A stretch of 64,000 nucleotides of DNA from an uncultured Ardenticatenia bacterium (lineage in GTDB: Bacteria > Chloroflexota > Anaerolineae > 4572-78 > NAK82): the NCBI GenBank assembly GCA_937127125.1, contig CAKZLO010000020.1:1-64000 (forward strand), given 5' to 3'. The position numbers and the translations under genes were made by a program. A model generated the notes under the pieces. The model did not search any database and had not been told where the DNA came from. It was given only the letters and a program-made list of their open reading frames with translations. Shown here in pieces: positions 3,614-31,592 of the stretch. How positions within the stretch are numbered: position 1 is the stretch's first letter; each line of letters begins with the position of its first letter.

Positions 3614-3643
3614 CGAGGGGGCGCGCTGCGCCCCCTCGTTTTG
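3614..3643 (+). terminator. Intrinsic terminator or attenuator between binding protein and permeases
   Basis: A perfect 11-bp stem, CGAGGGGGCGC 3614-3624 with GCGCCCCCTCG 3628-3638, has a 3-nt loop and is followed by TTTTG. Being inside the operon, it probably allows partial read-through and gives excess binding protein. Confidence 0.85.
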
Positions 3644-15696: not shown

Positions 15697-16066
15697 CGGC
15701 ATAGTTAATCAGCTACGGTTAGAACACGGCGCGAAGCAAATAGAGGAGCTGCCTGGCAACACATAACAAAGCCTTGTTATATGCTTATCCACTTCTTAGG
15801 CGAATACGCACGAGCGCCTTTTACTTCGGTGGCTTGGAGACGTCCCGCTAGCCACCGAGAAAATGGAGAAACCTATTAACAGCTGAGCAATGGCGTGTAA
15901 TTCGAATTCGGCAGTGAATGAATGTGAATTACACCTCTTAGTGCGCTTGTCAGGTGATAAGCGATAGCGCAAAACCAGGTTTTAAGGAGGGAGCTGAACT
16001 GTTCGGCAGCTCAGCTCCCATTTGAGTTATAACTTGCCTACCGGTCGATAATCCTCTTGTACAACG
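15697..16066. other. Gene-free interval with two hairpins
   Basis: No gene is seen in these 370 nt. TCGGTGGCT 15826-15834 pairs with AGCCACCGA 15850-15858, perhaps ending the pilin transcript although no T-run follows. A second, stronger hairpin is listed separately at 15989-16019. Confidence 0.4.
15989..16019 (-). terminator. Probable terminator of the protoglobin transcript
   Basis: GGGAGCTGA 15989-15997 pairs with TCAGCTCCC 16011-16019, with an inner CTG/CAG pairing. On the minus strand the stem is followed by TCCTTAAAACC, a weak T-rich end. It lies 48 nt past the globin stop. Confidence 0.5.
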
Positions 16067-16651
16067 TTACCAGTCGTTCTCTTTAACGTAAGGTGCACTC
16101 CAAAGTGCTACCTGTAGTACCACTGACTTGAACCATGCCTGATGCATCTTTTCCACCTCATCGGCACTGTGCCCCTTCTTAGCGAGGAAAGGCTTAATAG
16201 TCGCGGTGATCGGGTAGATGAAAGCCACCATGTAGCGATGGTTGACGATTGGTACGGATGCAACCTTGTCTGTCTGATTCTTCTTTGTGCGATGGTGACG
16301 TAGCCCGATCTCCTGTTGATAGTCCAGCCATGCTTGATTGTAGGGGCGATTGCAGGTATCCAGAATCCATTGGCCGAAGCGCTTGCGCACTGCGGCGAGA
16401 TACTCGCTGTTAGGATTCCCTTTGCCATCGGTAAAGTAATACAATAGATGCGGATGGGAACCCACAAAGCCATACCAAACATCGAGGATGTCCTCAATCT
16501 GATCAGCCAATACCTCACCAGCCATACGCAGGTACTTCTCGTCTTCTGGCCCGAACAATACCGCTTGTTTTAGCTGTGCGAACTCCTCGAGCGTGATAGA
16601 AGATTTCGCCGCTTGCGCCGTGCCATACGTGTAACCCGGGATAGTTGTCAT
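16067..16651 (-). CDS. Protoglobin-family haem protein
   Basis: Single-domain globin of the protoglobin/globin-coupled-sensor family, 194 aa, longer than ordinary globins. An N-terminal extension (IPGYTYG) precedes the fold. YGFVGSHPHLLYYF forms the distal part, and the His of EIGLRHHRTKKNQ fits the proximal F8 ligand. Such proteins bind O2, CO or NO. ATG 16651 is fixed by AGGAGGAGG just upstream. It lies 117 nt downstream of a Cys-rich MarR regulator in the same orientation, with no promoter visible between them, so co-transcription is likely. I infer an oxygen or NO handling role governed by that regulator. Confidence 0.85.
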   Translation of the reverse strand: MTTIPGYTYGTAQAAKSSITLEEFAQLKQAVLFGPEDEKYLRMAGEVLADQIEDILDVWYGFVGSHPHLLYYFTDGKGNPNSEYLAAVRKRFGQWILDTCNRPYNQAWLDYQQEIGLRHHRTKKNQTDKVASVPIVNHRYMVAFIYPITATIKPFLAKKGHSADEVEKMHQAWFKSVVLQVALWSAPYVKENDW

Positions 16652-16768
16652 AGTAGCCTCCTCCTGTACCAAACCAAATGTCTTCGAACCCTTTCCAGCA
16701 CTCATCAGGCAATAGCTGCATATTGAATCAAACAGGTCAAACGAAACGACCGGTTAGGCAATCAGGCA

Positions 16769-17404
16769 TCAACCTCTTCCAGGCTCTGTCTCCTCGGATG
16801 GGACATGATCAGGGCACTCAAGGTAGGTATGCGGTTCTGCCAGAGGAGCATCCATATAGGCACAATGATGTGGTCCACGTGGATCGTCAGGGTGAACATT
16901 TTGTTGAAAGAATTGACATCCCCAACACATTTCGTAAACTTTTACATAACCACGTTCTTGCAGACGTCGTATGATTGATCGTGTAGCGCGCAAGAGCGCC
17001 TCTTGATCCGCATCCGGTAGAGAAGCAATTTCTAACTCAATCTCATCCAGAATATCGTCCAACAATGTGACCTCACGCTCTCCAGCAGTGCTCAGTGTGA
17101 GCATGACCGTGCGCAAGTCTTCTGGCACTACGCTGCGTGTTACCATCTCCTTACGTTCGAGCGCATCTACCACATCACTGGCCGTCGCATAACTAACACC
17201 CAAACGCTCAGCCAACCCACCAATGGTGCGCACACCCGGACGAACATATCTGAGAAAAAGCAACGCTTGGATTTGTGCTGGCGAAAGTCGCCTGGTCTTG
17301 CCACGGTCACGGAATAGGTAATATATGGCTTGGCTAATACGATAAAGCGCAATTGTAATACGTCCACTGCGAGTGCTTCTCCGAGCTGGATTGAATGGTG
17401 ACAT
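16769..17404 (-). CDS. MarR-family regulator with Cys-rich C-terminal tail
   Basis: A 211-aa winged-helix regulator: dimerisation helix (IALYRISQAIYYLFRD), recognition region (GGLAERLGVSYATASDVVDALERKEMV) and a wing with DLR. It is longer than usual MarR proteins (about 140-160 aa) because of a C-terminal tail with C160, C163, C181 and C197 in a CXXC-X17-C-X15-C layout, plus nearby His residues. That could hold a metal or Fe-S cluster or act as a thiol switch (inference). Its ATG overlaps a perfect 11-bp palindrome, indicating autorepression. The downstream protoglobin is its likely target. The tail is the unusual feature. Confidence 0.9.
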   Translation of the reverse strand: MSPFNPARRSTRSGRITIALYRISQAIYYLFRDRGKTRRLSPAQIQALLFLRYVRPGVRTIGGLAERLGVSYATASDVVDALERKEMVTRSVVPEDLRTVMLTLSTAGEREVTLLDDILDEIELEIASLPDADQEALLRATRSIIRRLQERGYVKVYEMCWGCQFFQQNVHPDDPRGPHHCAYMDAPLAEPHTYLECPDHVPSEETEPGRG

Positions 17405-17425
17405 TATTTAGGACTCCTAAATAAT
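17403..17425 (-). promoter_or_regulatory. Palindromic operator of the MarR-globin unit
   Basis: ATTATTTAGGA 17403-17413 and TCCTAAATAAT 17415-17425 form a perfect 11-bp inverted repeat with one central base. It covers the end of the -10 box, the start of transcription, the AGGAG ribosome site and the first codon of marR, so bound repressor would block both polymerase and ribosome. Confidence 0.85.
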
Positions 17426-17451
17426 TATAAACACATTTGGCATTTTGTCAA
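17424..17451 (-). promoter_or_regulatory. Consensus promoter for marR-protoglobin
   Basis: On the minus strand TTGACA (17451-17446), a 16-nt spacer and TATAAT (17429-17424) are all consensus. Transcription should start near 17417, giving a leader of only about 13 nt that begins with GGAG or AGGAG. Confidence 0.85.
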
Positions 17452-31503: not shown

Positions 31504-31558
31504 CTCATCGACCTGGACGTGTAGTTCATAGTTTCCAGGAAGACACATCGAAGTGCGA

Positions 31559-31592
31559 GGAAGAGCAGCCTTTGCTGCTCTTCCTGTTTTTT
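31559..31592 (+). terminator. Intrinsic terminator of the cold-shock gene
   Basis: GGAAGAGCAGC 31559-31569 pairs with GCTGCTCTTCC 31574-31584 around a CTTT loop and is followed by TGTTTTTT. Confidence 0.92.

Follow-up and report, generated by a model that had tools for sequence, protein, structure and literature searches.

In the 64,000-nucleotide stretch of DNA that we analyzed (hereafter the window), a gene for a MarR-family regulator and a gene for a protoglobin stand in tandem behind a promoter overlapped by a perfect palindrome, and comparison with related loci indicates that the four-cysteine tail of the regulator, the palindromic operator, and the protoglobin travel together as a conserved system. 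In light of these observations, the regulator (hereafter tail-MarR) is probably an autoregulatory repressor whose Cys4 tail, through an Fe–S cluster, another metal, or thiol chemistry, senses an oxidant or NO and thereby releases protoglobin expression.

Architecture of the marR–Protoglobin Locus

The marR gene (16769..17404, minus strand) encodes a predicted winged-helix repressor of 211 aa with a C-terminal Cys4 tail. Its MarR domain matches PF12802 with 46.1 bits (cut-off 27) and PF01047 with 39.7 bits (cut-off 24.6). Foldseek matched the MarR domain only and not the tail, the 50 best matches being MarR-family regulators or unnamed ones of the same fold. When compared with the NCBIfam MarR equivalogs (OhrR, AdcR, and others), it reached at best 29.5 bits against a curated cut-off of 200. 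The only cysteines of the protein, at positions 160, 163, 181, and 197, are all located in the tail and leave the core without any, in agreement with an earlier note on this DNA that had described a regulator with a four-Cys tail. The second gene (16067..16651, minus strand) encodes a single-domain protoglobin of 194 aa starting with MTTIPGYTYG, as supported by PF11563 (133.7 bits, cut-off 25) and by a phmmer match to the protoglobin MaPgb of Methanosarcina acetivorans (2veb, E 4.5e-92, about 70% identity over 190 residues), of which the W60, Y61, and H120 positions are conserved, the proximal H120 being aligned to a His. The identity formerly given to this gene is thereby upheld, and its start is moved to 16651, which the homologues support, rather than 16705.

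Between the two genes lie 117 nt (16652..16768, minus strand), with GGAGGAGG ahead of protoglobin and one weak 5-bp terminator-like stem (16735-16751), the latter a point against the operon reading. In most relatives, the gap houses a small gene of the glutaredoxin family (PF00462, E 4e-7); the window lacks this gene, and in L017 it has decayed. In the Roseiflexus-like loci L003 and L005, the gap is reduced to 8–11 nt, so that marR and protoglobin are almost certainly cotranscribed there; in the window, the two genes would likewise belong to a single operon with one strong promoter and with marR ahead of protoglobin. A near-perfect inverted repeat, GTGTAATTCGAATTC / GAATGTGAATTACAC, is also found 3' of the protoglobin gene (15895-15934).

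The promoter consists of a −35 hexamer TTGACA (17446..17451, minus strand) and a −10 hexamer TATAAT (17424..17429, minus strand), which jointly match the consensus at 12 of 12 positions and are separated by a spacer of 16 nt; equivalent −35 hexamers are seen in the upstream sequences of relatives. The operator, ATTATTTAGGA-G-TCCTAAATAAT (17403..17425, no strand assigned), is a perfect palindrome with the core TAGGAnTCCTA, made of two arms of 11 that are 100% complementary around a spacer of 1. Since 30 Markov-1 shuffles of the 64-kb window gave no site with arms of at least 11 and a spacer of 0–1, such a palindrome is unexpected in a sequence of this length. The window has two further perfect inverted repeats whose arms measure at least 11, at 3614-3638 and 31558-31585, with spacers of 3 and 4–6, respectively. 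The operator shares two bases with the −10 hexamer (17424-17425) spans the predicted transcription start point and the ribosome binding site AGGAG (17414..17418, minus strand, 9 nt ahead of the ATG), and reaches two bases into the ATG (17404-17402). The start point, an A or G 6–7 nt past the −10 (17417..17418, minus strand), was placed from promoter geometry and coincides with the middle of the palindrome. Hence, the consensus promoter and the palindrome over the −10, start, ribosome site, and first codon, both put forward before, were recovered, the codon being covered for two of its bases.

Proteins of the MarR family act as dimers on palindromic sites, and in most cases they repress the operon that encodes them. 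On this basis, a tail-MarR dimer would bind the palindrome that overlies the −10, the start point, and the beginning of marR, and because this site covers the −10 and the start point, the bound protein should block RNA polymerase, which would repress both marR itself and protoglobin. Occlusion at the operator is well supported; DNA binding itself, the sign of regulation, the cofactor, and the signal are what we infer. A scan of the genome for the site, which the earlier note had named as a check, found the 15-bp site once at up to two mismatches, and this site is mostly single in the genomes of 13 relatives too, so that the regulator is a local one. In the L014 and L017 genomes, additional sites resembling the operator were near the background given by a reversed-pattern control. 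The L017 genome contains several further TTTAGAACTACTAAA-like sites away from marR (L106:2317, L107:2201, and L108:1902), which perhaps reflect an enlarged regulon, or chance.

Linkage of the Tail-MarR to Protoglobin

When only the MarR protein served as query, a search of 84,980 species genomes yielded 16 loci, mainly from Chloroflexota with one labelled Chthonomonadia, whose regulators are 53–72% identical to that of the window. All 16 keep the Cys4 tail, a protoglobin 3' of marR (72–90% identical, with a frameshifted copy in L010), and the palindrome in the promoter, either perfect or with one to two core changes; the remaining flanking genes are unlike from one locus to another. In a set of 400 Chloroflexota genomes, a 54-residue profile of the tail matches 28 genomes and PF11563 matches 64, and protoglobin is present in 25 of the 28 tail genomes (Fisher p 3e-19). 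The tail and protoglobin are no more than 2 kb apart in 22 of these 28 genomes, in either gene order or divergent, and these close pairs include tails of only 33–64 bits. The exceptions are three genomes without protoglobin and three others in which the two genes are not adjacent. Armatimonadota have three clear tail loci, each with a protoglobin. One copy of the regulator, L100, has an altered fourth-Cys region, and no protoglobin is found near it.

According to the earlier note, the proposal would be contradicted by a globin regulated by an orthologue lacking the Cys tail. This test was run, and no protoglobin was found next to a MarR without the tail; at the loci devoid of a tail regulator, the protoglobin gene is either solitary or divergent from a LysR gene. 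The latter arrangement, seen in the Chloroflexota loci L082, L083, L086, and L089-L091, is possibly a second mode of protoglobin control.

The Operator Core in Several Phyla

The TAGGAnTCCTA core precedes tail-MarR operons in five phyla, as illustrated by the sites of the near group (TTTAGGAGTCCTAAA), Nostoc (TTAGGAGTCCTAA), Deinococcus (TTAGGAGTCCGAA), Ensifer (ATAGGATTCCTAT), S. fredii (ATAGGAATCCTAT), and the protoglobin-first group, where it stands before protoglobin (TATGTAGGTATCCTACATA). Within 150 nt of the first gene and with at most one mismatch, the core is found in 35 of 50 tail loci, a count in which the near-group loci are homologous and hence not independent, versus 0.46% of shuffled sequences. 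In the same search, it is found in 0 of 11 protoglobin loci without a tail regulator. For the other 15 tail loci, the search of these 150 nt gave no good core site, although one of them, from Rhizobium, has perfect sites elsewhere. In the protoglobin-first loci (L067-L081 and L118, including the Armatimonadota examined among them), the site is shifted to the front of protoglobin, as expected if it belongs to the operon. We thus see in the recurrence of the core between phyla, together with its movement with gene order, a stronger argument for a candidate operator than in the near-group loci. The relatives do not all share its overlap with the start codon, as the site is located 25–35 nt ahead of this codon in several of them. 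Additional TAGGAnTCCTA sites are found before trx in Nostoc and, in Rhizobium, before TlpA-SOD-marR genes and a second operon.

The Cys4 Tail and Its Putative Signal

In an alignment of 38 homologues, with identity to the window MarR going down to 27%, the tail (residues 152-202; 16799..16951, minus strand) is invariant solely at C160, C163, F166, H179, C181, and C197. This corresponds to the spacing CxxC-x17-C-x15-C, with the invariant His two residues ahead of the third Cys, and the four Cys are retained in 10 of 10 plasmid-borne homologues examined (Nostoc, Deinococcus, and Proteobacteria). AlphaFold2 modeled most of the tail below 50 pLDDT with 17 sequences; with the 38 homologues, mean pLDDT for the protein was 87.8, and values rose to about 70–90 across most of the tail. 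Because no Pfam family matched the tail above its cut-off, and because a comparison with the PDB gave ferritin matches at chance level and nothing else, a metal or cluster is deduced from conservation alone; yet the Cys4-His arrangement looks like a metal or Fe–S site. The Cys spacing is similar to that of the Cys4 [4Fe-4S] domain of HiPIP; homology to HiPIP was considered and set aside, given that the tail has no Pfam HiPIP match and no HiPIP among its PDB matches up to E 10. As far as sequences can tell, this tail, which no Pfam family covers, defines a putative MarR subfamily, for which the phage records searched gave no match. A short open frame with the Cys4 tail and no in-frame MarR domain (L099:2314-2532) may be a stand-alone tail or a decayed gene.

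With regard to the signal, outside protoglobin operons the plasmid homologues of the tail-MarR adjoin genes for thioredoxin, thiol peroxidase, redoxin, AhpD-like peroxidase, TlpA, and SOD, with single cases of NnrS and of a copper-binding protein (plastocyanin/azurin family). Another recurrent neighbor is a conserved, probably secreted protein of ~240 aa ending in ..SGxLSLP.. that belongs to no Pfam family and is encoded in Deinococcus, rhizobia, Defluviimonas, and one Chloroflexota genome without protoglobin (L124:4784-5527, L125:4666-5382, L126:4686-5426, L129:6029-6745, and L063:1472-2278). On a plasmid of Nostoc sp. C057 (L120:7395-7799), an ordinary globin (PF00042) stands 2.7 kb away from the tail-MarR, which is also near tpx, CPVC thioredoxin, MOSC, and diiron oxygenase genes, and in Ensifer L123, there seem to be MOSC-like and amidotransferase-like genes nearby.

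These neighbors make a gas or redox signal plausible. The compact switch controlling a globin that the earlier note had envisioned is well supported by the conservation of linkage, operator, and tail; its gas or redox nature is plausible. In the mechanism that we favor, the Cys4 tail would hold a metal site, most likely an Fe–S cluster, or serve as a thiol switch. Once NO, O2, or peroxide attacked the tail, the dimer would release DNA, and the protoglobin then made would clear these reactive species or convert them.

Sensing of an oxidant or of NO agrees best with these observations, and its main rival is zinc or pure thiol chemistry. Under that alternative, which we deem rather unlikely, the same autoregulated repressor would harbor a structural zinc in its tail, and the signal would be either a small molecule bound in the usual MarR cleft or oxidation of the thiols at the zinc site, which would then work as a zinc redox switch, rather than an event at an Fe–S cluster. 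Four invariant Cys and a His are typical of zinc sites too, and thioredoxin, glutaredoxin, and peroxidase neighbors fit a thiol switch; however, zinc ribbons usually have two CxxC pairs and less so the single third and fourth Cys observed here. It is much less probable that the MarR senses heme or iron status, like the heme-sensing MarR protein PefR, and tunes the globin to heme supply: if the regulated gene does encode a heme protein, if PefR is among the Foldseek structural matches, and if a His stands beside a Cys in the tail, the match to PefR nevertheless covers the MarR domain only, and in other phyla the MarR gene adjoins those of thiol and peroxide enzymes rather than heme genes. Least credible of all is the control of translation as well, which the earlier note had suggested and in which the palindrome, if wholly transcribed, would fold into a 10-bp stem hiding AGGAG and AUG, as the predicted start at its center leaves most of the left arm untranscribed so that the stem cannot form (the predicted mRNA begins AGGAGUCCUAAAUAAUG, with no hairpin at -1.0 kcal/mol for 34 nt), and as the site is distant from the start codon in the relatives mentioned above and stands before protoglobin in other operons.

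Relation to Known Systems

A sensor-repressor beside its globin is a known kind of arrangement. In the NsrR–hmp pair, a repressor with a Cys-ligated cluster controls a globin that handles NO; NsrR is an Rrf2 protein, whereas the window regulator is a MarR by sequence and fold. OhrR and other Cys-based redox repressors of the MarR family have in common with the tail-MarR the MarR fold, a palindrome over the promoter, peroxide/thiol neighbors, and, as predicted here, binding to this palindrome and autoregulation. OhrR senses through a Cys in the MarR core, but redox Cys of this core or N-terminal type are not found in the window MarR, which has all four in an added tail. ArnR of Corynebacterium, a [4Fe-4S] wHTH regulator of narKGHJI and hmp, resembles the tail-MarR by its MarR/ArsR-like winged helix and by the Cys-containing C-terminal part, which in ArnR is sensory and holds the [4Fe-4S] cluster; it represses the globin gene hmp and responds to NO (PMC12343034). 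The arrangement therefore has a precedent, albeit with another Cys spacing, since ArnR has three conserved Cys (179, 193, and 223) and no fourth, versus CxxC-x17-C-x15-C, and since its target is a flavohaemoglobin, versus a protoglobin here, in other phyla. The four invariant Cys would fit an ArnR-like Fe–S regulator. In the literature searched, which leaves aside most subscription papers and bioRxiv preprints, neither a MarR protein controlling a protoglobin, nor the TAGGAGTCCTA operator, nor this tail was found described.

On this basis, we advance tentatively, as a reading that may well be too specific, a new and widespread MarR subfamily with an Fe–S cluster in its Cys4-His tail and a TAGGAnTCCTA site, which would sense NO/O2, would have protoglobin as its main target in Chloroflexota and Armatimonadota, and would be the first dedicated protoglobin regulator. 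In this regard, it is worth recalling that nitrite reductase and peroxynitrite isomerase activities are described for MaPgb, for which multiple roles are postulated (PMC4020757), and that single-domain protoglobins have no agreed function in vivo. If such Fe–S tail-MarRs sensing NO/O2 were genuine, they would be evidence for protoglobin as a stress-induced NO/ROS protein. The TAGGAnTCCTA operator may be used to find targets of the tail-MarR in several phyla, and a dedicated regulator with a recognizable operator would make the signal that induces protoglobin directly measurable. The recurrence of the tail and DNA site as a pair in several phyla thus offers a testable clue to the conditions that induce protoglobin.
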